A program made the position numbers and the translations under genes. Below are positions 39,477 to 56,264 of a stretch of 59,802 nucleotides of DNA, piece by piece. The DNA is from Chloroflexi bacterium ADurb.Bin180 (GTDB taxonomy: Bacteria > Chloroflexota > Anaerolineae > UBA2200), in contig MWCV01000013.1 of NCBI GenBank assembly GCA_002070215.1, positions 1 to 59,802 of the forward strand. The letters run 5' to 3'. Positions within the stretch are counted from its first letter, which is position 1. Each line of letters opens with the position of its first letter. The notes under the pieces were generated by a model. That model did not search any database. It worked only from the letters and a program-made list of their open reading frames with translations, and was not told where the DNA came from.

Positions 39477-40676
39477 GTGAAAGAAGTCGTCATTGTTGGC
39501 GGGCTGCGTACGCCCATCGGGCGGCATGGTGGCGGGCTGAAGGATGTTACGGCTCAGGACCTGGCTGCCCGGCTGATGAAGGAGATCCTCAACCGCACCA
39601 AGATCGACCCGATGCTGATCGCTGACGTCATCGTGGGGTGCTGCGGGCAGCTCAGCGACGCCCCTAACCTGGCGCGGGTTGCGGCCCTGATGGCCGGCCT
39701 GCCCATCGAGGTGCCCGGATATACCGTTCAGCGCAACTGCGCCTCCGGCCAGGTGGCCATCACCAATGCCTACCAGGCAATCCAGGCCGACGATGGCGAG
39801 GTGTTTATGTGCGGGGGCACGGAGAGCATGTCGAATGCCCCCTACATGGTGCGAGGGGCAAGGTGGGGCCTCAAGCTGCGCCACACCACCTTTATCGACA
39901 CGCTCTGGGAAGGTCTGACCGATCCCATCTGCAACCTCATCATGGGACGCACGGCAGAGAACCTGGCCGAGAAGTACCAGATCACTCGGCTGGAGCAGGA
40001 TGAGTTTGCAGTGAACTCGCACAAGAAGGCCTTTATGGCCACGCGTATGGGCAAGTTCAAGGACGAGATCTTCCCCGTTGAGGTGAAGAAGAGAGTCGCC
40101 GGACAGGAGGTCGCATCAGAAAGCGTCTCTCAGGATGAGTGCATCAGCCCGACTCTGAGTGTCCAGAAAGCCGCTCTATACCCGACGGTGTTCAAGGAGA
40201 ACGGCACGGTCACTCCGGCCAACGCGTGCCCCATCTCTGATGGTGCGGCTATGTGTCTGGTAATGACGGCTGACAAGGCGAAGGAACTGGGGCTGGAGCC
40301 GATGGCCTACATTCGCGGATACGCTTACGCTGCGGTTGACCCGGCCATCATGGGCATCGGGCCGGCCTATGCTGTTCCTAAGGCGCTGAAGAAGGCCGGA
40401 CTCAAGCTCACCGACATGCAGCTCATCGAGCTCAATGAGGCTTTTGCCGCCCAGGCCATAGCGGTGGGCAAAGAGTTGGCCAAGGATGGCTGGGACTGGG
40501 ACAAGGTGAACGTCAACGGCGGAGCCATCGCACTGGGGCACCCTGTCGGCTGTTCCGGCATACGCATCGTGATCACTCTTCTGAGCGAAATGAAAAAAAG
40601 TAACCTCTCGCTGGGATTGGCCACGGAATGCGTCGGAGGCGGCCAGGGAGCGGCCATCGTCTTGGAGCGCAAGTAG
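39477..40676 (+). CDS. Acetyl-CoA C-acetyltransferase (thiolase)
   Basis: This is a 399-aa protein from GTG 39477 behind AAGGAGG. Catalytic Cys88 is in [11 protein letters not shown], His355 in [10 protein letters not shown], and the second Cys385 in [12 protein letters not shown]. This is the complete thiolase set. It cleaves 3-oxoacyl-CoA in beta-oxidation or condenses two acyl-CoAs. It is the first gene of a run with 3-hydroxyacyl-CoA dehydrogenase and crotonase, so a degradative or reversible role is likely. Confidence 0.96.
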
Positions 40677-40733
40677 GCACACAGACCCGCATCGACCTGC
40701 GGTGACGTAATTCAACCCAAGGAGGGACTGGCG

Positions 40734-41954
40734 ATGTACATCTTTAAGGCGGCGGTCGTTGGGGCGGGCTTTATGGGCGGCAGCATCGCCCAGGTGATTA
40801 CCTTCTCAGGCCTGCCCGTGGTATTGAAGGATGTCGACCAGAAGATGTTGGACAAGGGCATGGACCAGTTGCGGAATATCTACCAGCGCCGCGTCGACAG
40901 CGGCAAGATGAGCGCTGGCGAGATGGCGGAAAAGGTAGGCATGGTCACGCCCAGCCTCACCTACGATGACTTTGGCGATGTCGACATTGTCATCGAGGCC
41001 GTGCCCGAAGTGATGAAGATCAAAAAGGCCGTATTCACCGAGCTGGACAAGGCCTGCCCGGAACACACCATTTTTGCCTCGAACACCTCTGCCCTGTCGA
41101 TTTCGGAGATGGGTGCAGCGACCAAGCGTCCGCAGAAGATGATTGGCATGCACTTTTTCTCGCCGGCCCACGTGATGAAGCTGGTGGAGATCATTCCTGG
41201 TCTGGACACCTCCCAGGAAACGATCGACGACGTGGTTATGTTCACCGAGTCGCTGCGCAAGATACCAGTGGTGGTGCAGGAGTGCCCTGGCTTCCTGGTG
41301 AATCGGCTGCTGATGCCGTACCTGGGCGAAGCCGGAATGGCGCTTCAAGAGGGCGCCGCGACGGCCCGTGAAATCGATGAGGAGATGGTCAAGTTCGGCT
41401 GGCCGATGGGCCCCTTCACCCTGATGGATATGCTGGGCAACGATGTGATCTATCACACGGCCAGGTACCTGGGTGAGGAGTACGGGGTGGAGACACCGCC
41501 CTTGTTTGAGGAGCTGTTCAAGGCCGGACGCCTGGGTGAAAAGTCAGGCGCCGGTTTCTACGGCTATGGGGACCAGACTGACGAGCCAGTGAAGGCCATG
41601 ATCAAAAAGCTGCAGGAGGAGGGCAAGGTCAAGACTGGCACCCCCTTTACCTGGCAGCGCCTCATGATGCCGATGATCAACGAGGCGGTCACCTGTATTA
41701 CCGAAAACATCGCTCCGCCCGACAAGATCGACATGGCCATGATCGCCGGAACGGGTATGAAGTATGGCGAGGAGCGTATGGGCCCGCTCCAGTTTGCGGA
41801 TGTGATCGGTCTGGACACGGTGCTGGCCGAACTCCAGAAGTACCAGGCCATGTTCGGCAACCGCTTCCGCCCGGCACGGCTGCTCAAAACCAAGGTGCGT
41901 GCCGGCCATCTGGGCAAAAAGACCGGCAAGGGCTTTTTTGAGTACACCACCTAG
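40734..41954 (+). CDS. 3-hydroxyacyl-CoA dehydrogenase
   Basis: This 406-aa protein has an NAD-binding GAGFMGGSIAQ near residue 10, SNTSALSIS, the catalytic-region GMHFFSPAHVMKLVEII, and PGFLVNRLLMPYL. The C-terminal helical domain is duplicated (GKGFF and related repeats), as in FadB-type enzymes, which explains the length above the ~280 aa of simple HBDH. It interconverts 3-hydroxyacyl-CoA and 3-oxoacyl-CoA. Ribosome site AAGGAGG. Confidence 0.95.
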   Translation: MYIFKAAVVGAGFMGGSIAQVITFSGLPVVLKDVDQKMLDKGMDQLRNIYQRRVDSGKMSAGEMAEKVGMVTPSLTYDDFGDVDIVIEAVPEVMKIKKAVFTELDKACPEHTIFASNTSALSISEMGAATKRPQKMIGMHFFSPAHVMKLVEIIPGLDTSQETIDDVVMFTESLRKIPVVVQECPGFLVNRLLMPYLGEAGMALQEGAATAREIDEEMVKFGWPMGPFTLMDMLGNDVIYHTARYLGEEYGVETPPLFEELFKAGRLGEKSGAGFYGYGDQTDEPVKAMIKKLQEEGKVKTGTPFTWQRLMMPMINEAVTCITENIAPPDKIDMAMIAGTGMKYGEERMGPLQFADVIGLDTVLAELQKYQAMFGNRFRPARLLKTKVRAGHLGKKTGKGFFEYTT

Positions 41955-42017
41955 CGGGCGTCGATTGCACGCCACTCGCTCGGATGTCACAGATTACTTA
42001 CGAAAGGAGCTCTGACC

Positions 42018-42818
42018 ATGGCGGAACGCCAGTATGTCAAGATTTCGATAGAGGAACGGGTCGCGATCCTCACCATCGATCATCCGCCGGCCAACGCTTT
42101 CAACGGGCCGACCGTGGATGACCTGGCCAGTGCGTTTGATGAAGTGTCGGCCAACCCCGAGGTCAAGGTAATCATCATCACCGGGGCTGGGCAGTTTGCC
42201 TTTGTCGCCGGGGCCGACGTGAACGAGATCAAGAGCCAGATCGACTTGGCACGGTCCGGGCAGCCAGTCAAGACGGACCTGATCGAAAAGGGCCAGCAGC
42301 TCTTTTTGCGGATCGAGCGCAGCAAAAAGCCGGTCATTGCCGCCATCAACGCGGTGTGCCTTGGCGGAGGGAACGAGCTGGCAATGGCCTGCCACATTCG
42401 TATCGCCTCCGATACGGCGCGCTTTGGACAGCCGGAGGTGAATCTCGGCGTGCTGCCAGGATGGGGCGGCAACATCCGCCTCGCGCGTATCGTCGGTCGC
42501 GGCAAAGCGATTGAGCTCATCCTCACCGGCGACATGATCCCGGCCCAGGAGGCAGCCCGGCTGAACCTGGTCAACAAGGTAGTTCCGGCAGGGCAGGTGG
42601 TCAAGACCGCCATGGACCTGGCCAAGAAGCTGGCTGGCAAGAGCGCGTTGGCCATGGGAGCCATTCTGGAGACCATTGACTATGGCCTGACGGTGCCTAT
42701 CGAGGACGGCCTCAAGAAGGAGCTGGAAAAGTTCGCCTACCTCTGCTCCACCGAGGATGGCTTTGAAGGCGTGAGCGCTTTTCTGCAAAAGCGCCAGGCC
42801 AAATTCACTGACAAGTAG
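42018..42818 (+). CDS. Enoyl-CoA hydratase (crotonase family)
   Basis: This is a 266-aa crotonase with GAGQFAFVAGADVNE forming the CoA site and oxyanion hole, and both catalytic glutamates in VCLGGGNELAMACHI and GQPEVNLGVLPGWGG. The hydratase reaction is therefore intact. Together with the preceding genes it completes hydration and oxidation of short-chain acyl-CoAs. Confidence 0.96.
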   Translation: MAERQYVKISIEERVAILTIDHPPANAFNGPTVDDLASAFDEVSANPEVKVIIITGAGQFAFVAGADVNEIKSQIDLARSGQPVKTDLIEKGQQLFLRIERSKKPVIAAINAVCLGGGNELAMACHIRIASDTARFGQPEVNLGVLPGWGGNIRLARIVGRGKAIELILTGDMIPAQEAARLNLVNKVVPAGQVVKTAMDLAKKLAGKSALAMGAILETIDYGLTVPIEDGLKKELEKFAYLCSTEDGFEGVSAFLQKRQAKFTDK

Positions 42819-42881
42819 CCGGATACAGAGGGCGTGCGGCGGGCCCGTCGCTCGCCGCGCGCCAGCCGCTTCATGTGAGCT

Positions 42882-44438
42882 ATGAGCCTCAACCTGGCAA
42901 TCGTCCTTGAAACGGGAGCCGCAAGCCGGCCTGAGCACACGGCAGTGATCGCCGACGCGGCTCAGGGCGGCGCAGGCCGAAGGCTGACCTATCGTGAGCT
43001 GAATGAGCTCGCCTGTCGCTGCGCCAGCGGACTGGCCAAAGCCGGTGTCCGCCCCGGCGACAAGGTGGCAGTCTTGCTGTCAAACGAGCCCGAATTCCTC
43101 ATTGCCTACTTTGGAGTGCTCAAGGCGGGCGCGTGCGTCGTCCCGCTCAACACGCTCCTCAAGTCCGGCGAAATCGCCGCCGAGTTGGAGGATTCGGACT
43201 CTACCCTGCTAATCGCGGATGAGGCTCTGCTGTCCGAGGCACGCAGTGCCTTTGCGCGAGTAGAGGCATGCGACCGTTTGGTTGTGGTCAGAGCAGGGCC
43301 GAGGAACGGAACGCAGGGGCAGGCGCCGGTGGAATGCGGCTGCGACTGGCAGGAGTTGCTGGGCAACGGTTGCCCCGACTGGGACACCGTTCAGGCTCGC
43401 CCTGACGACACAGCTGTGATTCTCTACACGGCTGGTTCGTTCGGACGGCCGAAAGGGGCGGAGCTATCCCACTTTAGCCTGTTCTATAATGCGGCCCTGA
43501 CCTGCGATCAACTGTCGCATACAACGCCGGATGACGTATCGCTGGCCAGCCTGCCCTTGTTCCACGCCTTTGGGCAGACCTGCGTGATGAACGCTACCCT
43601 GTATGGCGGAGGAACGCTGGTTCTTCTGCCGCGCTTTGAGCCGGACCGGGCGCTTCAGGCAATCGAGCGTCACAGGGTGACGATTCTGGTGGGCGTTCCC
43701 ACTATGTATTGGTACCTGCTGCACTACCCGGCTGCTGGCAAGTACGATTGGAGTTCGCTGCGCCTCTGCTGCTCCGGAGCGGCCGCCTTGCCGCCGGAGA
43801 TGCTGGCCGAGTTTCAGCAGCGGTTTGGGCGGCCGATCTACGAAGGTTATGGTCTGACAGAGACTTCGCCCGTGGCGTCATTCAACCCGACGGATCGACC
43901 ACCGGTCCCTGGCTCGGTGGGCCGGCCGATCTATGGTGTCGAGATCCGCCTGGTTGACGAAAAAGACCGTCCGCTGCGGGCGGGTCAGGTCGGCGAAATC
44001 GTCATCCGCGGACACAATGTTATGAAGGGCTACTACAAGCGGCCCAGACCCACGGCGGAGGCGCTGTCCGGCGGCTGGTTCCACACCGGCGACCTTGGCA
44101 AGATGGACGAGCAGGGCTACCTGCACATCGTCGGCCGCAAGAAAGACCTGATCAAGCGGGGAGGTCTGAACATCTACCCGCGCGAGGTCGAGGACGTGCT
44201 CCAGGGACATCCGGCAGTCGCCCAGGCTGCAGTAGTGGGCATACCGGACGATGTGATGGGCGAGGAGATCAAGGCTTTCGTAGTGTTGCAGCAGGACGAA
44301 TCCATAGAGGCCGAGGAGCTCATCGAATATGCACGCTCCAAGGTAGCTGCCTACAAGTACCCTCGCTACATCGAGTTTCGCACGGAACTGCCGAAGGATG
44401 CCGCCGGTAAGGTGATCAAGAGACAGTTGCGACGGTAA
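42882..44438 (+). CDS. AMP-dependent acyl-CoA ligase, first copy
   Basis: This is a 518-aa ANL-superfamily enzyme. The adenylation core has YTAGSFGRPKGAELSH, where the usual YTSGTTG reads AGSFG, then EGYGLTETSP and GWFHTGDLGKMD. The C-terminal lid has GGLNIYPREVED and the catalytic Lys in PKDAAGKVIKRQL. It activates a carboxylic acid to acyl-CoA. No strong ribosome site is seen before the ATG. Substrate likely a medium or long fatty acid, but not certain. Confidence 0.92.
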   Translation: MSLNLAIVLETGAASRPEHTAVIADAAQGGAGRRLTYRELNELACRCASGLAKAGVRPGDKVAVLLSNEPEFLIAYFGVLKAGACVVPLNTLLKSGEIAAELEDSDSTLLIADEALLSEARSAFARVEACDRLVVVRAGPRNGTQGQAPVECGCDWQELLGNGCPDWDTVQARPDDTAVILYTAGSFGRPKGAELSHFSLFYNAALTCDQLSHTTPDDVSLASLPLFHAFGQTCVMNATLYGGGTLVLLPRFEPDRALQAIERHRVTILVGVPTMYWYLLHYPAAGKYDWSSLRLCCSGAAALPPEMLAEFQQRFGRPIYEGYGLTETSPVASFNPTDRPPVPGSVGRPIYGVEIRLVDEKDRPLRAGQVGEIVIRGHNVMKGYYKRPRPTAEALSGGWFHTGDLGKMDEQGYLHIVGRKKDLIKRGGLNIYPREVEDVLQGHPAVAQAAVVGIPDDVMGEEIKAFVVLQQDESIEAEELIEYARSKVAAYKYPRYIEFRTELPKDAAGKVIKRQLRR

Positions 44439-44484
44439 CAGTCCTGCACTGGGCAGGACACTTTGGGTCAGCAAGGAGGAACCG

Positions 44485-45657
44485 ATGGACTTTACGTTTC
44501 CCAAAGAGTACGAGCTGCTCCGTCGAATGATCCGCGAGTTTGCGGAGAAAGAAGTAGCTCCTCTCGCCGAGGAGATCGATCGCGACGAACGCGTGCCGAT
44601 GGAGACCATCAAGAAAGCCGCGGAATTGGGCTTGATGGGAGTGCCGTTTCCTCAGAAATACGGCGGCGCGGGCGCGGGCGAGACCGGCTACTGCATCCTG
44701 ATGGAAGAGATGAACAAGGTCTGCGGCTCGACGGCCACGGTCATCGGCGCCCATACGGGAATCGGCGCGATGGCTATCTATCTGGATGGCACCGACGAGC
44801 AAAAGAAAAAGTACCTCGTGCCTCTGGCCAAGGGCGAGCTCATTGCCGCCTTTGCGCTGACGGAGGCCAATGCCGGCTCTGACGCTGCGGCCATCCAGAC
44901 CCGCGCCGTGCGCGATGGCAACGAGTTCGTGCTCAATGGCTCCAAGATATGGATCACGAACGGAGACATTGCGGACATCATCAGCGTGTTCGCCGTCACC
45001 GACCCGGCTCTGGGTGCCAGAGGCGGGGTGACGGCTTTCATCGTCGAGAAGGGCTTTCCCGGGTTCAAGGTTGGGCACAAGGAAGAAAAGATGGGCATTC
45101 GCGGCTCGTCAACGGCCGAGCTCTTCTTTGAGGACTGCCGCGTTCCGGCCGACAACGTGCTGGGCATCTTTGGTGCGGGTTTCCTGACGGCAATGAAAAC
45201 CCTGGACGTGGGGCGCATCAGCCTGGGCGCGGGTGGCCTTGGCGCCTCACAGCAGGCGCTCAAGATGAGCATGGACTTTGCCAAGAGCCGCTACCAGTTC
45301 GGCGCGCCCATCGCTGCGAAGCAGGCCATTCAGTGGATGATCGCTGACATGGCCATCGAGGTCGAGGCGTTGCGCTCGCTGGTCTATCGGACCGCCTGGA
45401 TGATGGACAGCGGCAACATGGGGCGCGACTTTAGCACCATGGCGGCCATGTGCAAGGTCTACGGCTCAGAAGTTGCCTGCCGCGCGGTCGACGCCGCGGT
45501 GCAGATTCACGGCGGAATGGGCTACATGAAAAGCTATCCGATTGAGCGGATGTATCGGGATGCCCGCATCACGCGCATCTTTGAAGGGACCAATGAGATT
45601 CAGCGCGATGTGATCGCCAAGAATCTCTTCCGCAGTGTGGGGCTCAAGCTGAGATAG
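44485..45657 (+). CDS. Acyl-CoA dehydrogenase, second copy (short-chain type)
   Basis: This is a 390-aa protein behind AAGGAGGAACCG. It has FALTEANAGSDAAA, NGSKIWITNGDIAD, IHGGMGYMKSYPIERMYRDA and IFEGTNEIQR, with the catalytic Glu in FEG. It is closer to butyryl-CoA dehydrogenase-type enzymes than the enzyme at 23183 is. etfB follows after 24 bases, so ETF is its direct partner. Confidence 0.96.
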   Translation: MDFTFPKEYELLRRMIREFAEKEVAPLAEEIDRDERVPMETIKKAAELGLMGVPFPQKYGGAGAGETGYCILMEEMNKVCGSTATVIGAHTGIGAMAIYLDGTDEQKKKYLVPLAKGELIAAFALTEANAGSDAAAIQTRAVRDGNEFVLNGSKIWITNGDIADIISVFAVTDPALGARGGVTAFIVEKGFPGFKVGHKEEKMGIRGSSTAELFFEDCRVPADNVLGIFGAGFLTAMKTLDVGRISLGAGGLGASQQALKMSMDFAKSRYQFGAPIAAKQAIQWMIADMAIEVEALRSLVYRTAWMMDSGNMGRDFSTMAAMCKVYGSEVACRAVDAAVQIHGGMGYMKSYPIERMYRDARITRIFEGTNEIQRDVIAKNLFRSVGLKLR

Positions 45658-45681
45658 GAAAACCGGGAGGAGGAGCTACCT

Positions 45682-46467
45682 ATGAAGATCGTGGTCATGA
45701 TCAAGCAGGTTCCTGACACTACCGAGGTCCGGCTTGACCCCAAGACCGGGACTCTGATTCGCGAAGGAGTGCCGAGCATCATCAACCCGGAGGACAAGAA
45801 CGCGCTGGAGGAGGCCCTCAAGCTGAAAGAGAGCCAGGGCGCACACGTTGTGGTGGTGTCGATGGGGCCGCCTCAGGCCGAAGATGCGCTGCGTGAGGCT
45901 CTGGCCATGGGAGCGGATGAGGCCATACTGCTCACCGACCGCGCCTTTGCCGGTGCCGATACCTGGGCTACGGCGGCCACGCTGGGCTATGCCGTGAAGA
46001 AGATCGGCGACTATGATCTGGTGCTGGCGGGCCGCCAGGCTATTGATGGAGACACGGCTCAAGTTGGTCCGCAACTGGCCGAGTTCCTGAGGATTCCGCA
46101 GGTCACCTACGTGCGCGAGCTGACTGTGGCCAACAACAAGGTGAAGGCCAGACGGATGCTCGAAGACGGTTATGAGGATATCGAGGCATCGCTGCCGGCT
46201 CTGCTGACCATCGTCAAGGAGGCGAACACACCACGGTATCCACATGCAGCCGCGATCATCAACGCCTATCGCGAGCAGAAGGTCACTTACTGGAAGCTCG
46301 CTGACGTGGAGGCGAACCCCGACAGCGTTGGCCTGAAGGGATCGCCCACACAGGTCAAGCGCAGCTTTTCGCCCCCGCCCAAAGAGCCGGGCCAGATCCT
46401 CAAGGGAGGGCCGCCAGAAGCGGCCAAAGATCTGGTGGCGATCCTCCGTCAGAAGAACATCATCTAG
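45682..46467 (+). CDS. etfB: Electron transfer flavoprotein beta subunit, second copy
   Basis: This 261-aa protein has the same landmarks as the first copy: MIKQVPDTTEVRLDPKTG, SMGPPQAEDALREALA, LAGRQAIDGDTAQVGPQ and GLKGSPTQVKRSFSPP. The ATG at 45682 follows GGGAGGAGGAG. The two EtfB proteins are recognisable paralogues. Its etfA partner lies 2 kb further on rather than next to it. Confidence 0.95.
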   Translation: MKIVVMIKQVPDTTEVRLDPKTGTLIREGVPSIINPEDKNALEEALKLKESQGAHVVVVSMGPPQAEDALREALAMGADEAILLTDRAFAGADTWATAATLGYAVKKIGDYDLVLAGRQAIDGDTAQVGPQLAEFLRIPQVTYVRELTVANNKVKARRMLEDGYEDIEASLPALLTIVKEANTPRYPHAAAIINAYREQKVTYWKLADVEANPDSVGLKGSPTQVKRSFSPPPKEPGQILKGGPPEAAKDLVAILRQKNII

Positions 46468-46514
46468 GACGGGATGGGGGAATAAGTCGGTTGGGGCGTC
46501 AGAGAACCGTGCTT

Positions 46515-47183
46515 ATGGAATGGATGAGCCAGGTGCGCTGGGGGCTTTTCGACCTTGACAACACACTCTATCCCAGCGATAGCGGGGTGTTTCAGGCCAT
46601 CGGCCAGAGAATCCATGACTTTATGGCGGAGCGGCTGGGCATGGACGACGACCTGATCGCCAGCCTGCGCCAGGAGTATATGGCGGCCTATGGCGCCACG
46701 ATGAGGGGCCTGGCCCTGGATTACGGCGTCGACCCGGAGGACTATCTGGAGTACGTGCATCGGCTGCCGGTAGGGCGGTACATCCAGCGCAATGACACAC
46801 TGGACGAAACCCTGCAGGCCCTGCCCTGGGAGAAGGTGATACTGACCAGCTCGACGCGCGAGCATACGCAGGCGGTGCTCTCGGCGCTTGGCGTCGGCCA
46901 TCATTTTGGTCGGGTCTTTGACATCCGCGACACCGCTTACATAGGAAAACCGGCCGAGTCGGCCTACCGCGTGGTGCTGGAGGCCATCCCGGCCGAGGCG
47001 GAACACTGCCTGTTCCTGGATGACTCTCCGGCGAATGTCCGGGCGGCCGCCGAGCTGGGTATGAGGACGGTGCTGGTTGGTGCGGAACACAAGAGCGAAG
47101 AGGCGGACCTGCACGTAGCACGGGTTGAAGACGCACTGGCTCTCATTGGGTCGCTGGGCCCGGGAGCTGCGGCGGATAGATGA
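46515..47183 (+). CDS. HAD-superfamily hydrolase (pyrimidine 5'-nucleotidase-like)
   Basis: This is a 222-aa HAD phosphatase with the nucleophile Asp in FDLDNTLYP, the LTSSTREH motif II, and the FLDDSPANVRAA acidic motif. It resembles pyrimidine 5'-nucleotidase/SDT1-type proteins. The start is uncertain: ATG 46515 is used, ATG 46524 and a TTG at 46491 (with GGGGGA upstream) are alternatives. It sits between etfB and an aminotransferase gene. Confidence 0.85.
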   Translation: MEWMSQVRWGLFDLDNTLYPSDSGVFQAIGQRIHDFMAERLGMDDDLIASLRQEYMAAYGATMRGLALDYGVDPEDYLEYVHRLPVGRYIQRNDTLDETLQALPWEKVILTSSTREHTQAVLSALGVGHHFGRVFDIRDTAYIGKPAESAYRVVLEAIPAEAEHCLFLDDSPANVRAAAELGMRTVLVGAEHKSEEADLHVARVEDALALIGSLGPGAAADR

Positions 47184-48463
47184 GTCACTACAATACGAAT
47201 GGATGGGGGGAGTTCATGACAGAAGGTCGAGAGGGAGCCACGCAGAACCTGAGTGGCTGGGATGGCCAGTTTACGACCAACTGGGAAAAGTCGCTGGCCA
47301 AGCGCACGGAGCGCATGACCAGTTCGATGATCCGCGAAACACTAAAGATGATGGCTACGCCGGGAATGATCTCCTTCGGGGGAGGCAATCCGGCGCCGGA
47401 ACTGTTCCCGCTGCGCGAGTTTCAGGAAGCATGCCGCTATGTGCTGGAGCACGACGGCCCCAGCTCTCTGCAATACAGCGTCACCGAGGGATTCCCGCCG
47501 TTGCGCCAATTTCTGGTGGAAAAGATGCGCAAATACGGGGTCCCGGCGGAGCAGGAGAACATTCTCATTGTCAACGGTTCACAGCAGGCGTTGGACCTGG
47601 TCGGCAAGGTCTTTCTCAACCCCGGCGACGCAGTGCTGACCGATAGGCCAACCTATCTGGGTGCCATCCAGGCGTGGTCGGCCTATGAAGCACGGTTTGC
47701 CACCGTACCACTCGATGATGACGGCACCCGAATTGACCACGTCGAAGAAATCCTGCGCCGCGAGCCGGTCAAGTTTATCTACTGCCTGCCCAATTTTCAC
47801 AACCCGGCGGGAGTCACCCTCTCGCTGGAGAGGAGAAAACAACTGGTGGAGCTGGCGGCCCGCCACGGAGTATTCATCGTCGAGGACGATCCCTATGGCG
47901 AACTCCGGTTCGAGGGGGAGGACCTCACGCCGCTCGTAGTGATGCACAAGGAGAACACCATCTATCTGTCGACGTTCTCCAAGACGCTGGCGCCCGGAAT
48001 ACGAATCGGGTGGATCGTCGCTCCGGCCAAAGTGCTCGGCAGGATCGTTCAGGCCAAACAGGGCGCTGACCTGCACACCAGCAGCTTTGTGCAGATGATC
48101 GCCAATGACATCTGTCAGAGAGGATTCCTGCGGCAGCATGTGCGACGCATCCGTGATACCTATCGTGAGCGCTGCGGGGTGATGCTGGCCGCGATGGACA
48201 AGTACTTCCCTGAGGGTGTGCGTTGGACAAGGCCCAAGGGAGGGCTTTTCCTGTGGGTAATCTTGCCCGAGGGTATGGATTCGATCAAGCTGCTCAAGGC
48301 GGCCATCGAAGAGAAGGTCGCCTTCATCCCCGGGCCGGCTTTCTACCCCGATGGCAAGGGCCAGCATACCTTCCGTATGACCTTTGCGACGGCCAGCCCG
48401 GAGATGATCGAGGAGGGTATTCGGCGGCTGGGAAAGGTCATCAAGAGCCAAATGAAGCCGTAA
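47180..48463 (+). CDS. PLP-dependent aminotransferase (2-aminoadipate/LysN-type)
   Basis: This 427-aa fold-type I aminotransferase overlaps the HAD gene by 4 bases (ATGA); ATG 47216 with GGGGGAG is an alternative start. It has ISFGGGNPAPELFPL, the FIYCLPNFHNPAG segment and the PLP lysine in STFSKTLAPGIRIGW. This group contains 2-aminoadipate, aromatic and branched-chain amino acid aminotransferases. It could feed 2-oxoacids to the KorDAB complex or to 2-hydroxyacid formation. Confidence 0.92.
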   Translation: MSHYNTNGWGEFMTEGREGATQNLSGWDGQFTTNWEKSLAKRTERMTSSMIRETLKMMATPGMISFGGGNPAPELFPLREFQEACRYVLEHDGPSSLQYSVTEGFPPLRQFLVEKMRKYGVPAEQENILIVNGSQQALDLVGKVFLNPGDAVLTDRPTYLGAIQAWSAYEARFATVPLDDDGTRIDHVEEILRREPVKFIYCLPNFHNPAGVTLSLERRKQLVELAARHGVFIVEDDPYGELRFEGEDLTPLVVMHKENTIYLSTFSKTLAPGIRIGWIVAPAKVLGRIVQAKQGADLHTSSFVQMIANDICQRGFLRQHVRRIRDTYRERCGVMLAAMDKYFPEGVRWTRPKGGLFLWVILPEGMDSIKLLKAAIEEKVAFIPGPAFYPDGKGQHTFRMTFATASPEMIEEGIRRLGKVIKSQMKP

Positions 48464-48532
48464 GCACGTTTCGGAAGCGGACGCCCATATCCGAGCTGCG
48501 CTTGGCAGCACCAGAACAGAGGAGGGCCAGGA

Positions 48533-49735
48533 ATGGAACTCAAAGTAGATCTCGACAAGTGCACCGGGTGCGGTACCTGCACCTTCGCCTGCCCATTCGG
48601 AGCGATTGAGATCAAAGACGGCAAGGCGCATATCTATGAGAGCTGCACCGACTGCGGTGCCTGCGTCGAGCAGTGTCCTGAAGGCGCCCTGTTCATCGGC
48701 GTCAGGGTCGCGGGTTCGGTACGCGTGCAAGACTATCGCAATGTCTGGGTGTTCGCGGAGCAACGCGAAGGCGTTCTGACCAAGGTTGCTCATCAGCTCA
48801 TGGGCAAAGCCCGTCAGCTCGCTGACACCCTTGGCGCGCAGGCAGCAGCGGTGCTGCTAGGCGACGGCGTGGAGCCGCTGGCCAAGGACCTCATCGCCGA
48901 TGGGGCAGACATTGTCTATCTGGCCGAGAATCCACTGCTAAAACACTACCGCACCGACGCCTACGCCAAGGTGCTCAGCGATCTGATCCAGGAAAAGAAG
49001 CCAGAGGTCGTGCTCTTTGGGGCAACGACGGTTGGCCGCGACCTGGCGCCGCGGATCTCCCAGCGCATCTACACCGGGTTGACGGCTGACTGCACGGGAC
49101 TGGACGTGGACGAAAGCGAGCGATTGCTGTTGCAGACCCGACCTGCCTTTGGCGGTAACATTATGGCTACGATCGTCTGCCCTCACCATCGACCCCAGAT
49201 GTCGACGGTGCGCCCTGGTGTGATGACGGTTCCTGTGCCGGACAAAAACCGCCAGGGAACGGTGGAGAAGGTGCAGGTCGCTCTCGGCGAGGATGACCTC
49301 AACGTCAAGATCCTTGAGGTCGTGCGCGAGGCTCGCCGGCGGGCAGACCTGGAGGCGGCCAAGATTATCGTCTCTGGTGGTCGCGGTCTGGGAGGCCCCG
49401 AAGGATTCAAGATGATCGAGCAGTTGGCCGAGGCGCTGGGCGGCGAAGTGGGCTCGTCGCGCGCGGCAGTCGATGCCGGGTGGATTGACCACGACTATCA
49501 GGTAGGCCAGACAGGCAAGACCGTGCGTCCGGAACTGTATGTGGCGTGCGGCATATCCGGCGCCATTCAGCACCAGGCCGGGATGAAGGAAAGCAAGTTC
49601 ATTGTCGCCATCAACAAAGACCCCGGAGCACCCATCTTTCAGATCGCGGACATCGGCGTGGTGGGTGACCTGTACAAGGTGATCCCGGAACTCGTCAAGC
49701 AGCTCAAAGCGGCCGGTGCGGGGAGCAAGATCTAG
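48533..49735 (+). CDS. etfA: Electron transfer flavoprotein alpha subunit with N-terminal 2[4Fe-4S] ferredoxin, second copy
   Basis: This 400-aa protein has the same build as the first copy: eight Cys (C10, C13, C16, C20; C38, C41, C44, C48), then EtfA with [43 protein letters not shown] and ISGAIQHQ. It probably pairs with EtfB at 45682. Two ferredoxin-fused EtfA genes in 26 kb is unusual. Confidence 0.96.
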   Translation: MELKVDLDKCTGCGTCTFACPFGAIEIKDGKAHIYESCTDCGACVEQCPEGALFIGVRVAGSVRVQDYRNVWVFAEQREGVLTKVAHQLMGKARQLADTLGAQAAAVLLGDGVEPLAKDLIADGADIVYLAENPLLKHYRTDAYAKVLSDLIQEKKPEVVLFGATTVGRDLAPRISQRIYTGLTADCTGLDVDESERLLLQTRPAFGGNIMATIVCPHHRPQMSTVRPGVMTVPVPDKNRQGTVEKVQVALGEDDLNVKILEVVREARRRADLEAAKIIVSGGRGLGGPEGFKMIEQLAEALGGEVGSSRAAVDAGWIDHDYQVGQTGKTVRPELYVACGISGAIQHQAGMKESKFIVAINKDPGAPIFQIADIGVVGDLYKVIPELVKQLKAAGAGSKI

Positions 49736-49741
49736 CTCTTG

Positions 49742-49820
49742 CCTTCCGGCGGAAGGATCAGGACACGCTGGTGCACGCCTGGCCGGCCGAACAGGCGTGC
49801 ACCGGGAAGAAGCTTCCGCC
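49742..49820 (+). other. Nested inverted repeats in the etfA-thioesterase gap
   Basis: Perfect 12-bp stem GGTGCACGCCTG (49770-49781) with CAGGCGTGCACC (49792-49803), wrapped by an outer 8-bp stem GGCGGAAG (49748-49755) with CTTCCGCC (49813-49820). GGAAGG (49751-49756) can also pair with CCTTCC (49742-49747), which would compete with the outer stem. No U-tract follows. Possible switch, RNA processing site or factor-dependent terminator. Confidence 0.6.
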
Positions 49821-49894
49821 CTTTCCACGGTGCGGTATGTCGTGTTGTGACCCCACTTGATCGGCTTGAGATCAGCAAACGAGGTCGTGTGTCT

Positions 49895-50329
49895 ATGAAG
49901 CCAGCCACGGTCATCGAATCCACCCTACGAGTCAGGTATGCAGAAACCGATGCCGAAGGCGTGGTCTACTACGCCAACTACCTGATCTACATGGAGGTAG
50001 CCAGAGTCAACTACTTGCGCGCTCTGGGGGTTGATCGTGGAATCTGGGGGGTGCACGGCCTGGGCCTGGTGATTGCCGAGGCGCTGTGCCGCTATCACGC
50101 CCCGGCACACTTTGACGAAGAGCTGGTCATTCGGGCCTGGCTGGAGTCAACCAGACGTTCGAGCTCGGTCATGCATTACGAGGTGGTACACAAGGAGTCG
50201 GGGCGCTTGCTGGCTGACGGACACACCGTGCAAGTCTTTGTTGACCTGAAGACGATGAAACCGGCACCTATACCCGCAGAGGTGCTGGAAAAGCTGCGGG
50301 CGGCGGTGGGGGGCAGGCAAGCAGAATAG
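49895..50329 (+). CDS. Hotdog-fold acyl-CoA thioesterase (4-HBT/YbgC type)
   Basis: This is a 144-aa protein from the ATG at 49895 with GAGGT upstream; the longer frame runs into the structured gap. VRYAETDAEGVVYYANYL contains the active-site Asp and the substrate-gate region of 4-hydroxybenzoyl-CoA thioesterase-like proteins. It would release free acid and CoA from an acyl-CoA. Position upstream of the dehydratase genes suggests a role in ending or balancing that pathway. Confidence 0.92.
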   Translation: MKPATVIESTLRVRYAETDAEGVVYYANYLIYMEVARVNYLRALGVDRGIWGVHGLGLVIAEALCRYHAPAHFDEELVIRAWLESTRRSSSVMHYEVVHKESGRLLADGHTVQVFVDLKTMKPAPIPAEVLEKLRAAVGGRQAE

Positions 50330-50368
50330 GATCCGCGCCAGCGCGGCGGGCGCGGGTGGCGGTGCGTT

Positions 50369-51241
50369 ATGCTGGAGGAGCGGCAGTACGGTCCAGTAGT
50401 TGCCTTCCGGTCGGCTCGCACTTTCTTTGGGCGAGGCTACTACTATACTGCTGCCTACTATGTAGATACACTCCTCATTGACTCTGGCTGTGCCTACAGC
50501 GCGGCAGAGTTGGCGGCCAGGCTAAAGCCGGCCCGGCCAGTGTCGCAGATTGTGAATACCCACTGCCACGAAGATCACATCGGGGCGAACGGGCTGCTCC
50601 AGTCAAGATTCGGCTGTCGGATTGCCGCCCATCCGCTGGCTCTGCCGGTTCTTGAGAATCCGAGATTGCAGCCATTGCAGCCCTATCGTCGGTTCTTCTG
50701 GGGCTGGCCCCTGCCCTCTCACGGGCAGTTTGTGGACGAGTGGGTGCAGACGGAGCACCACTGCTTTCGGGTGATCCCGACCCCGGGCCACAGCCCTGAT
50801 CACATTGCCCTCTTTGAGCCGGAGCAGGGCTGGCTCTTCAGCGGTGATGCCTACATCGGCGGCCGCGACCGCGCAGCCAGGCCGGACTATGATGTCGTGG
50901 CCATGATTCGTTCGCTGCGGACGTTAGCCTCTCTGGAGATCGCTGCACTCTTTCCTGGCAGCGGCACGGTGCGCCAGAATCGCCCGGCGGATGAACTGGC
51001 GCGCAAGGCCGCTCAACTGGAAGAGCTCGGCGAGAGCATCAAGATCCTTCATGCCCAGGGCCAGAGCCCCGCAAAGATACGCGACCGCCTGCTGGGTCGA
51101 GAGGGGAGTCTGTTCTATATGACTCTGGGCCATTTCAGCGGCGTGCATCTGGTGGAGCTGTTCTTGAAACCGTCGATGGAAGAGGATGGCGAAGGTGGGG
51201 ATGCAGGACTCGCTGCGCTGGCTGGAAGACCCCTACGCTGA
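50369..51241 (+). CDS. MBL-fold hydrolase
   Basis: This is a 290-aa protein with the zinc motif NTHCHEDHIGANG, later PTPGHSPDHIALFE and FSGDAYIGG. It resembles the glyoxalase II/hydrolase branch, so it may hydrolyse a thioester. Its last 56 bases overlap the dehydratase subunit gene, which points to tight coupling. Substrate unknown. Confidence 0.88.
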   Translation: MLEERQYGPVVAFRSARTFFGRGYYYTAAYYVDTLLIDSGCAYSAAELAARLKPARPVSQIVNTHCHEDHIGANGLLQSRFGCRIAAHPLALPVLENPRLQPLQPYRRFFWGWPLPSHGQFVDEWVQTEHHCFRVIPTPGHSPDHIALFEPEQGWLFSGDAYIGGRDRAARPDYDVVAMIRSLRTLASLEIAALFPGSGTVRQNRPADELARKAAQLEELGESIKILHAQGQSPAKIRDRLLGREGSLFYMTLGHFSGVHLVELFLKPSMEEDGEGGDAGLAALAGRPLR

Positions 51242-52295
51242 CTGGCCGCAGCGGTTCCCCGGACGCAAGGCCATTGGCTATTTCTGCAGCTATGTGCCGC
51301 TGGAGATCCTGCATGCTGCGGGTCTGACGCCAGTGAGAATCCTGCAGCTTGGCAGCACGGTTGCGGCGGCCCATGCTCACTTTCCTGCTTTCTCCTGTGC
51401 CATGGCACGAACGGCGCTCGAACGCCTGGTCAGCAGCCAGTTGGGTTTTCTGAACGCGGTGGTCTTTGCCCACACCTGCGACACGATGCAGTGTCTTGCT
51501 GACGCCTGGAGGATGGTGGACTCGAGCCAGAGAGTGCTCCACTTTTCACTGCCCACGACACTCGACGCGGCCGGGTCAGAGGAGTACGTGCGGACTGCCC
51601 ACCACCAGCTCCTGGGAGAGCTGGAGCTGCTGAGCGGCGTAAGGTTTTCGGAGGAAGCGCTCTTGGCAAGCATTGCTCTCTACGAGGAGCGGCGGCGCTT
51701 GCTGGCCGAGTTGTACCGGGCCAGGGACTCCCTGGGCGCCGGTGAGCTGTGGCGGATTACGGTCGCGGGCCTGCTCATGCCAGTCGAGGAACACCTTACG
51801 TTGCTGGGGAGGGCCATCTCTAGCCTCTCAGACGCGCCTGCGCGTTTCGGCACGGGCCCCCGGCTGGCTGTGGCTGGGACTGCTCTCCACGATGGCTCGC
51901 TGCTGGAACTGATCGAGGAGCTGGGAGGCCAGGTGGTGGCCGACAACCTGTGCACGGGAGAACGTGCCTTCCAGGGTCAGGTGGACCTGCAACACCATTC
52001 CGATGCACTGGCCGCCCTCACAGCGCGCGCCCTGGAAAGGCCCATTTGCCCGGCCAAACACAAAGTGGGGCAGGAGGCCGAGGCGCGCATCCTGGAGCTG
52101 GTGCGGTCGAGCCGGGCTGATGGTGTGGTCTTTGTGCAGCCCAAGTACTGTGACCCGTGCGCCTTTGATTATGTGCCTCAGCGGAAGGCCCTGGAGGAGG
52201 CCGGGATTCCGCACGTTGTGGTGGAAACCGAGACCGGGGCTTGCGGTGCCCAGGCGCGAACGCGTCTGCAGGCCTTGCTCGAGATGCTGTCCTAG
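51186..52295 (+). CDS. 2-hydroxyacyl-CoA dehydratase, smaller (HgdB/FldC/HadC-like) subunit
   Basis: This is a 369-aa protein from the ATG at 51186, with GGAAGAGG upstream and 56 bases of overlap with the MBL gene. Cys71 (FSCAMAR), Cys98 (HTCDTMQ) and Cys322 (KYCDPCAFDY) fall at the spacing of the [4Fe-4S] ligands in 2-hydroxyacyl-CoA dehydratase subunits. The larger subunit and the activator follow at once. It removes water from a (R)-2-hydroxyacyl-CoA by radical chemistry. A benzoyl-CoA-reductase role is less likely because only one activator is present. Confidence 0.85.
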   Translation: MAKVGMQDSLRWLEDPYADWPQRFPGRKAIGYFCSYVPLEILHAAGLTPVRILQLGSTVAAAHAHFPAFSCAMARTALERLVSSQLGFLNAVVFAHTCDTMQCLADAWRMVDSSQRVLHFSLPTTLDAAGSEEYVRTAHHQLLGELELLSGVRFSEEALLASIALYEERRRLLAELYRARDSLGAGELWRITVAGLLMPVEEHLTLLGRAISSLSDAPARFGTGPRLAVAGTALHDGSLLELIEELGGQVVADNLCTGERAFQGQVDLQHHSDALAALTARALERPICPAKHKVGQEAEARILELVRSSRADGVVFVQPKYCDPCAFDYVPQRKALEEAGIPHVVVETETGACGAQARTRLQALLEMLS

Positions 52296-52310
52296 TCTGG
52301 GGTTGGCGAA

Positions 52311-53555
52311 TTGGCGCAGGCACACCGTCGGTTGAGGTCGGCGAAGGAACTGCAGCGCCTGATGCAATGGCACTATGCCAGCATCCGTCTGCCGCGGCTG
52401 GGACGGCCCCTGGCCTGGGTGACGAGCGGGGCTCCGGTGGAGCTCCTGAGGGCTGCCGGGGTGGTAGCAGTCTACCCTGAGAACTATGGGGCGTTGTGCG
52501 GCGCGCAGCACCAGGCGGTGGCTCTGTGTCAGAAGGCCGAGTCAGAAGGGTACTCGCCTGACCTGTGCTCGTACGCTCGGACCAGCCTGGGTTCTGTGAT
52601 CGCGCCCGAGTCAGCTCCCCTGGGAGGACTGCCGCGGCCAGACCTGCTGATTGCCTGCAACAACATCTGTTCTACGGTGGTCAAGTGGTACGAGACGCTG
52701 TCCGACCGGTTCCAGGTGCCTCTCTTTGTGCTCGACCTGCCGTTCATTCATGACCGGCTCACGCCGGCGATGACAGCCTATGCCGTGACGCAGTTGCGAG
52801 ACCTGGTGACCTTCCTGGAGCGAGAATGTCGCCGCAAAGTGTCTTCGGCAAAGCTGGGCGAAGCGGTGCGGCAAGCGAACGAGACAGTCCGCCTATGGAC
52901 AGAGATACACGAGCTGTGCCAGGCGCATCCTTCACCGCTCAACGTTCCTGACCTGTTCGTGAACATGGCCCCGATTGTCGTCTTGCGCGGCACGGCCAGC
53001 GCCACCCGCTTCTATCGCCATCTGCGCGATGAGGTCGCTGAGCGGGTCCGAGAGGGCGTGGGAGCGGTCGCCGAAGAGCGCTACCGCCTGCTGTGGGACA
53101 ATATCGCCATCTGGCATCACCTCTACCGCCTGTTCAACTACTTTGCCGAGCAAGGCGCCTGCTTTGTGGTTGATACCTACACTACCGCCTGGTCCGCGGA
53201 GATTCCCCGGGGCGACCTGCTGGAGAGTCTGGCCGAGGCCTATGCCGGAGTGTATCTCAATCGGAGCCTGGAGTTCCGTGCACGGCGCATGACCGACATG
53301 ATCCAGGCCTATGATGTGTCTGGCTTTGTGATGCACGGCAACCGGAGCTGCAAACCCTACTCGCTGGGGCAGGTCGAGACGCGGCGGCTGGTCACAGAAA
53401 TGACGGGAGCTCCTGGTCTCCTGATCGAGGCTGATATGTGTGATTCCAGAGCCTTTGCGCCCGAGCCAATCCGCACACGCATTCAGGCGTTCATAGAGAC
53501 CCTTGAGAGCTCTGGCCGCGAGATGAGGGGAGAGGCACAGGGGGAGCGGCGATGA
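52311..53555 (+). CDS. 2-hydroxyacyl-CoA dehydratase, larger (HgdA/FldB/HadB-like) subunit
   Basis: This is a 414-aa protein starting at TTG 52311, whose N-terminus HRRLRSAKELQRLM matches the family; an ATG at residue 18 is a weaker choice. Cys86 (PDLCSYAR), Cys120 (CNNICSTVVKWYE) and Cys347 (GNRSCKPYSLGQ) are the likely cluster ligands. IEADMCDSRAFAPEPIRTRI near the end is typical. Its stop overlaps the activator start by 4 bases. Confidence 0.88.
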   Translation: MAQAHRRLRSAKELQRLMQWHYASIRLPRLGRPLAWVTSGAPVELLRAAGVVAVYPENYGALCGAQHQAVALCQKAESEGYSPDLCSYARTSLGSVIAPESAPLGGLPRPDLLIACNNICSTVVKWYETLSDRFQVPLFVLDLPFIHDRLTPAMTAYAVTQLRDLVTFLERECRRKVSSAKLGEAVRQANETVRLWTEIHELCQAHPSPLNVPDLFVNMAPIVVLRGTASATRFYRHLRDEVAERVREGVGAVAEERYRLLWDNIAIWHHLYRLFNYFAEQGACFVVDTYTTAWSAEIPRGDLLESLAEAYAGVYLNRSLEFRARRMTDMIQAYDVSGFVMHGNRSCKPYSLGQVETRRLVTEMTGAPGLLIEADMCDSRAFAPEPIRTRIQAFIETLESSGREMRGEAQGERR

Positions 53556-54346
53556 CCAAGCGCGCCTATCTTGGAATTGACATTGGCTCCCTGACGGTCA
53601 AGGTCATCCTCATCGACGAGCAGGGCAGGGTGATCGGCCGTGCCCTGGCGGTGGCGGGCTACGGTGGTCAGCAGGCGGCGAAAGACCTCGTGGCCGCGGT
53701 ACTGTCAGACGCAGGCCTGGCGCGTTCTGCCGTGGCTGGCTCGGTGGTGACCGGTTACGGCCGCGTGACCTTCGGCGAAGCAGACCGCGAGGTGTCGGAG
53801 ATCTCGTGCCATGCCAGGGGGGCAAGCTTCCTGATCCCGACGACGCGCACGGTGATCGATGTTGGGGGCCAGGACAGCAAGGTCATCCGCATCGACCAGA
53901 GGGGTCGAGTGGTTGACTTTGCCATGAACGACAAGTGCGCCGCAGGAACGGGCCGTTTCCTGGAAGTGATGGCCAACGCGCTGGGTCTGGCAGTCGAGGA
54001 ACTTGGGCGAGTGGCCCTTGTCAGCGCACATCCGTTGACCATCAGCAACACCTGCACCGTGTTCGCCGAGTCCGAAGCAGTGTCGCACCTTGCGCGCGGT
54101 GCCGCGCGAGAGGACGTGGCCAGCGGCCTCATTCAGGCCGTGTCGAGCCGAGTGCTGGGGCTCGCCGCCCGGGTGGGCCTGCGGCCGCAGGTGGTCTTCA
54201 CCGGCGGGGTCGCGCTGAACGAGGGCATGCTGACAGAGCTGCGCCGACAATCCGGGCTGGAGATCCTGGTTCCACCGGATCCCCAGATGGTTGGCGCCCG
54301 CGGAGCCGCGCTCTTTGCGCGGCAGTTCTCGGCGGGAGGAAGCTGA
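53552..54346 (+). CDS. 2-hydroxyacyl-CoA dehydratase activator (HgdC-type ATPase)
   Basis: This is a 264-aa ASKHA-fold ATPase. It has GIDIGSLTVKVIL (phosphate 1), DVGGQDSKVI (phosphate 2), VFTGGVALNEG (adenosine) and the cluster-binding Cys129 (NDKCAAGTGRF) and Cys168 (NTCTVFAESE), shared by a dimer. It injects one electron at low potential into the dehydratase at the cost of ATP. Reduced ferredoxin, which the Kor and ETF systems could supply, is the expected donor. Confidence 0.95.
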   Translation: MTKRAYLGIDIGSLTVKVILIDEQGRVIGRALAVAGYGGQQAAKDLVAAVLSDAGLARSAVAGSVVTGYGRVTFGEADREVSEISCHARGASFLIPTTRTVIDVGGQDSKVIRIDQRGRVVDFAMNDKCAAGTGRFLEVMANALGLAVEELGRVALVSAHPLTISNTCTVFAESEAVSHLARGAAREDVASGLIQAVSSRVLGLAARVGLRPQVVFTGGVALNEGMLTELRRQSGLEILVPPDPQMVGARGAALFARQFSAGGS

Positions 54347-56218: not shown

Positions 56219-56233
56219 CCGCGCAGATGTGCA

Positions 56234-56264
56234 GCCCCCGCCCCAAGCCCTGGGCGGGGGCTTT
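56234..56264. terminator. GC-rich hairpin after the acyl-CoA synthetase gene
   Basis: GCCCCCGCCC (56234-56243) pairs perfectly with GGGCGGGGGC (56252-56261) over an 8-base loop, followed by only three T. It lies between convergent genes. The rest of the 196-base gap holds no other feature I can support. Confidence 0.6.

Follow-up and report, generated by a model that had tools for sequence, protein, structure and literature searches.

Genes on either side of the etfA-thioesterase gap

The window (the whole 59,802-nt stretch of DNA analysed) is one contig of a 3.13-Mb assembly in 170 contigs, and metagenome genomes carrying the label Anaerolineales or Chloroflexota are its nearest named relatives when etfA is compared. 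A co-directional run of forward-strand genes passes from a thiolase gene (beginning at 39,477) through etfA (ending at 49,735) and, after a gap of 159 nt, into a thioesterase gene (beginning at 49,895). The order upstream of the gap is thiolase, 3-hydroxyacyl-CoA dehydrogenase, enoyl-CoA hydratase, acyl-CoA ligase, acyl-CoA dehydrogenase and etfB (39,477-46,467), then a HAD hydrolase, an aminotransferase, and etfA. The etfA open reading frame (48,533-49,735), the last gene of the upstream segment, matches the Pfam families ETF, ETF_alpha and Fer4 and encodes an N-terminal 4Fe-4S ferredoxin domain. The downstream segment begins with a YbgC/FadM-type acyl-CoA thioesterase gene (49,895-50,329, with the start set by codon usage) and continues with a metallo-beta-lactamase-fold hydrolase, two 2-hydroxyacyl-CoA dehydratase (HGD-D) subunits and a dehydratase activase (50,369-54,346).

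The acyl-CoA dehydrogenase, EtfB and EtfA proteins match the NCBIfam acryloyl-CoA reductase models AcrC, AcrB and AcrA, respectively, all below the cut-off. The etfB and etfA genes are not adjacent, being parted by the HAD-type hydrolase gene and the class I/II aminotransferase gene (46,515-48,463). A single run (39,477-54,346) holds thiolase, 3-hydroxyacyl-CoA dehydrogenase, enoyl-CoA hydratase, acyl-CoA dehydrogenase, an ETF with a ferredoxin domain, thioesterase, and 2-hydroxyacyl-CoA dehydratase with its activase, and it looks like that of a reductive acyl-CoA (fermentative) pathway. The genome of the window also encodes PNPase (TIGR03591, 1008.7 bits, above the cut-off) and Rho.

Stems in the gap and elsewhere in the genome

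The original prediction for the gap was of a perfect 12-bp inner stem nested in an 8-bp outer stem, the left arm of which could pair instead with the CCTTCC immediately before it. All three stems are present at those places. The inner hairpin (49,768-49,805, forward strand) has a 14-bp stem and a 10-nt loop; 12 perfect pairs join 49,770-49,781 to 49,792-49,803, with a U-G and a C-G pair at the base. There are 32 nt between the etfA stop codon and the 14-bp hairpin, and the 12-bp core lies 34 nt past the stop. When the 159-nt gap was dinucleotide-shuffled 5000 times, a perfect stem of at least 12 bp never arose, and one of at least 10 bp arose 23 times. With loops of 3 to 25 nt, only two perfect stems in the 59.8-kb window reach 10 bp, and the inner stem is the longer. 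Its predicted pairing probability is 1.0 in all five stretches folded, and a 121-nt stretch folds with z = −2.48 (5 of 200 shuffles fold equally well or better). Given its rarity among shuffles and a probability of 1.0 in every stretch folded, the inner hairpin is solid, and it is the only stem in the gap clearly beyond chance.

The U-rich tract that directly follows the stem of a Rho-independent (L-shaped) terminator is absent after the inner stem: the first eight bases contain no T, either here or in the orthologue of the same-genus relative L036. Eight bases free of T are not rare by base composition alone, and we give this feature moderate weight. A terminator scan restricted to loops of 3 to 8 nt lists nothing at the site, the 10-nt inner loop being outside that range. 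Rfam returned no match at the gathering threshold across the window. The hairpin is single-copy, since BLAST of its own genome on both strands returns the site alone.

The outer stem pairs 49,748-49,755 with 49,813-49,820 (eight perfect pairs), and the rival small hairpin CCTTCC-GGC-GGAAGG (49,742-49,756) pairs 49,742-49,747 with 49,751-49,756 (six pairs, 3-nt loop). Positions 49,751-49,755 are used by both, so the two stems cannot coexist. Among 5000 gap shuffles, 140 held an 8-bp outer arm pair and 149 held a 6-bp rival hairpin, about 3% in each case. Across the five stretches folded, the probabilities of the outer and rival stems were 0.71 and 0.29, about 1 and 0, about 1 and 0, 0 and 0.78, and 0.09 and 0.24, dominance shifting with the ends of the stretch. 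In a predicted fold, the upstream bases GGGGAGCAAGA can pair with UCUUGCCUUCC and sequester most of CCUUCC. The inner stem is retained with either alternative; the energy is −37.3 when the outer stem forms and −33.8 when the rival does, and the best fold of 49,742-49,820 reaches −44.2 with further pairs. If the outer stem closes, it is followed by the pyrimidine-rich tail CCTTTCCACG, with three T in eight bases. Folding thus upholds the inner stem at every choice of ends, whereas the other two trade places. Mutual exclusivity is present in the letters, yet, with shuffle rates of this size and probabilities that vary with the stretch folded, it is not strongly different from chance and not robustly predicted. 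The outer stem and its rival are probably incidental.

Hairpins elsewhere in the genome were surveyed in the window and ten 20-kb stretches, a hand-picked, non-random sample of 259,802 nt. There are 22 perfect stems of at least 10 bp with loops of 3 to 15 nt, against about 4.4 per shuffled set, and 17 of the 22 lie outside called genes, in a non-genic portion of 29,225 nt. In intergenic gaps of 40 to 400 nt (the survey covers gaps of at least 40 nt), stems of at least 9 bp occupy 7 of the 13 convergent gaps, 7 of the 67 co-directional ones and none of the 19 divergent ones. The same count in a 128,746-nt sample of the same-genus genome (G001) gives 5 of 8, 7 of 47 and 0 of 8, respectively; the site of the window and its orthologue are counted among the co-directional hairpins, and the stretch holding the orthologue was chosen deliberately. 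At these ordinary gap sizes the distribution is the pattern of gene-end (terminator-type) hairpins. Above 400 nt, where cases are few, the contrast is lost: the counts for convergent, co-directional and divergent gaps are 1 of 2, 2 of 4 and 3 of 4 in the genome of the window and 0 of 2, 0 of 2 and 1 of 1 in G001. The 16 co-directional hairpins of both samples carry zero to six T in the eight bases past the stem; zero is found only at the site of the window and its orthologue, the other 14 having one to six. Next in length among the perfect hairpins of the window is one of 11 bp (56,233-56,262), which lies in a convergent gap, 14 nt past an acyl-CoA ligase gene, and is an ordinary terminator candidate. 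One surveyed stretch (L139, G000:C2:60001-80000) is 53% coding by a simple gene caller, compared with 88-99% in the other ten.

The junction in related genomes

The order-level sample comprises seven genomes, among them that of the window (G000) and one other genome of the same genus (locus L036, genome G001). A search of 60 genomes with the DNA of the gap reached, besides the window, only the end of etfA in G001 and G004. The L036 etfA gene is 91% identical to that of the window and is followed, at +28 to +65 past the stop, by a 15-bp perfect stem that none of 200 shuffles matched. This hairpin is single-copy in G001 and without a match in G000, and MAFFT aligns it in register with the hairpin of the window. 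All 14 inner pairs are kept: seven are unchanged, one has a one-sided change and six have two-sided changes, and pairing is retained although 7 of the 14 letters of the left arm differ. When the 3′ partners were slid by one to three columns, pairing of the inner and outer stems, counted together, fell from 93% to 23-50% of cells. As a register control, 300 artificial independent hairpins were set at this site: 20 of them retained every one of the 14 pairs, and 13 of the 20 also shared at least seven left-arm letters, as the real one does. Because 13 of 300 independent hairpins align equally well, the inner-stem covariation, drawn from two sequences, is suggestive and no proof of common descent; the safer statement is that the hairpin is maintained. 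A longest-common-subsequence comparison of the arms was dropped, since 130 of 20,000 shuffles equalled it and some unrelated hairpin arms scored proportionally as high.

The compensatory changes that the original prediction made its test are seen for the inner stem in this one same-genus genome, with the reservation set by the control hairpins; the alternative folds fail the test. The outer stem keeps five of its eight pairs in L036, one of them by a two-sided change, and the rival stem keeps one of five countable pairs, one further pair being left uncounted at an alignment gap. Another outer stem, of 5 bp (GGCCC/GGGCU), can close around the L036 hairpin, and a nested layout with other letters might persist; a stem of five pairs is too short to be distinguished from chance.

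We then compared 15 places, including the window, at which etfA matches over its full or nearly full length with at least 70% identity. The 15 are not independent, several coming from one genus or family; L047 (60% etfA identity) was excluded as too distant, and L148 is the same place as L013. A strong hairpin is present in 10 of the 15 etfA gaps (9 of 14 relatives), and the hairpins are mostly unrelated in sequence. Eight places (the window, L036, L037, L040, L042, L045, L046 and L148) have a perfect stem of at least 10 bp matched by at most 2 of 200 shuffles. The other two, L039 and L146, have in common a long stem that is interrupted and has a base of 11 bp; the shuffle comparison covers L039 of the pair, whose longest perfect stem does not stand out (114 of 200 shuffles equal it). 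No strong hairpin was found in the etfA gaps of five relatives (L038, L147, L041, L043 and L044). Gap ends for the single-hairpin display were set by hand from the positions of the thioesterase motif.

The thioesterase motif comes next after etfA in 13 of the 15 gaps, the window among them. In L038 the following gene resembles, by eye, the metallo-beta-lactamase-fold gene, and the L042 sequence covers just 324 nt beyond the last sense codon. In the four gaps where the thioesterase motif follows and a strong hairpin is missing, the motif starts 42-88 nt past the stop, a close spacing that speaks for a shared transcript of long standing. The L037 hairpin extends to +46 and the thioesterase motif there starts at +115, which leaves little space for a promoter. 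The junction hairpins of L037, L039 and L042 carry U-rich tails.

In three other genomes the hairpin after etfA is supplied by a dispersed palindrome. The repeat has 62 matches in G045 (L148, G045:C24:31939-32039) and 56 in G007 (L045, G007:C69), both at E up to 0.01, and a 74-nt palindrome in L040:4204-4404 (G060:C219) has 70 matches at 69-100% identity in a 5.4-Mb genome; many of the matches in these genomes were counted on both strands.

Read-through, termination and other readings of the hairpin

We favour, with moderate confidence, an intercistronic gene-end hairpin with read-through, which would shield the 3′ end of the upstream etf segment, partly terminate transcription, or both. The inner stem-loop would sit between the cistrons of a co-directional gene run, and the lack of a U-tract after the stem would let RNA polymerase past it in at least some rounds of transcription. 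In the transcript the hairpin would block 3′-to-5′ exonucleases such as PNPase, some termination could occur at it, and the acyl-CoA dehydrogenase/etfBA side would build up above the thioesterase/dehydratase side. The observations behind this reading are the hairpin itself, its rarity by chance, its place after the etfA stop, the in-register counterpart in the same genus, the hairpins of relatives, the missing U-tract, and the presence of PNPase and Rho; from these we infer co-transcription across the gap, blocking of exonucleases and the direction of the imbalance.

Comparable elements are known from other operons. An intercistronic stem-loop in the puf operon of Rhodobacter was reportedly described by Chen and colleagues in 1988; there too a hairpin stands between operon parts, although the puf mechanism is experimental and the present one is deduced. 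The malE-malF element of E. coli is composed of REP repeats, whereas the hairpin here is single-copy and lies between different genes. The site nevertheless has the features of malE-malF and differential operon decay as presented in PMC5927463: a stable hairpin without a U-tract soon past the upstream stop, between co-directional genes, in a genome that encodes PNPase. According to that source, of 34 E. coli gene pairs in which the upstream gene is stabilised, 26 have the 3′ end of that gene immediately after a stable hairpin that lacks a U-tract. For the cip-cel operon of Clostridium cellulolyticum, PMC4423207 describes 3′-end stem-loops in selective RNA processing and links them to the relative abundance of the genes on either side; both cases have stem-loops at the ends of genes within an operon, and processing sites were mapped in cip-cel, whereas the stem-loop here is a predicted one. 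Among the papers listed by our literature search there was none on hairpins at the etfA-thioesterase junction, which does not prove that there is none. One survey of hairpin terminators omitted Chloroflexi for lack of good RNA-seq (PMC8355165).

The hairpin also resembles a Rho-independent terminator in being GC-rich and following a stop codon, and differs in having no U-tract past the inner stem. It may simply be a weak terminator. Against read-through stand the terminator-like hairpins in 7 of 13 convergent gaps, the U-rich tails in L037, L039 and L042, and the five of 14 relatives without a strong hairpin. The main rival to a read-through hairpin is Rho termination followed by trimming: factor-dependent termination is possible, Rho being encoded, and hairpin ends lacking U have also been read in this way, according to PMC13289151. 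In its full form this alternative, which we regard as possible although clearly less probable, holds that the etf transcription unit ends here by near-complete termination, either intrinsic without a U-tract or Rho-dependent farther on with trimming back to the hairpin, and that a separate promoter for the thioesterase-dehydratase genes lies within the 89 nt from the stem to their start. The preference of such hairpins for gene ends, the tails in relatives and the three T of CCTTTCCACG after a closed outer stem agree with it. The T-free bases past the inner stem do not, and no sigma-70-type promoter match was found in 45,000-54,000 (by a scan that may not suit the phylum), nor any strongly C-rich, G-poor (rut-like) stretch, the C/G ratio being at most 1.41 in 78-nt windows starting at 49,701-50,391. 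The 4 of 14 relatives with a thioesterase motif within 42-88 nt and no strong hairpin also speak against a unit end at this junction.

The original prediction had suggested that the nested element sets the ratio of the two parts of the operon. The alternative folds fail; a ratio-setting role for the inner hairpin fits the hairpins in 9 of 14 relatives and the lack of a U-tract here. This is a real hairpin of an ordinary kind, for which an effect on the ratio of the two operon halves is plausible. If the read-through hairpin is as we propose, hairpin-set operon stoichiometry, a principle already known from E. coli, Rhodobacter and Clostridium and not itself new, would extend to uncultured Chloroflexota; position and stem strength would be kept while the sequence turns over, and motif or Rfam searches would miss such elements. 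A broader and more doubtful proposal is that the hairpin slot at the etfA-thioesterase junction is under lasting selection in Anaerolineae, the sequence varying while a strong hairpin is kept or regained, so that the enzymes of fatty-acyl reduction and the ETF stay above the thioesterase and dehydratase that drain the same CoA pool. It would have to span three kinds of sequence: a unique stem, a canonical terminator and a dispersed palindromic repeat.

A two-state RNA switch, in which the exclusive outer and CCTTCC/GGAAGG stems set read-through or processing, is very unlikely. Both stems exist and overlap, their energies are not far apart, and L036 can close its own outer stem. A riboswitch or attenuator would be expected to keep both exclusive helices in relatives, however, and in the one same-genus relative compared the rival stem is broken and the outer stem partly so; in addition, about 3% of shuffles equal each stem, the predicted winner changes with the choice of stretch, and Rfam gives no match at E up to 1 for 49,650-49,950.

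We give equally little credence to a DNA palindrome that serves as operator for a regulator of the thioesterase genes. Two 12-bp inverted half-sites, 22 bp apart from start to start, do lie upstream of the thioesterase start, but the half-sites are not kept in the genus, half of the left-arm letters differing while pairing stays. A one-arm search of the same genome allowing at most one mismatch gave 38 places (9 for the reversed pattern), and among the 20 listed loci of the 38 the inverted repeat does not recur; these 20 include the two arms of the site itself, as well as L121 and L130, which were truncated by contig ends and for which the comparison used incorrect letters. Apart from the site itself, none of the 20 listed loci has a partner arm within about 60 nt (best 9 of 12 letters), and together with the BLAST result this led us to reject a repeat family in the genome of the window.

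Least likely of all is an inserted REP-like palindromic repeat without a local role, for although dispersed palindromes fill the slot in G045, G007 and G060, the single-copy status of the sequence in the genome of the window largely refutes it there, and the L036 hairpin is likewise single-copy. By eye, the hairpin letters of L046 are similar to the G045/G007 repeat.
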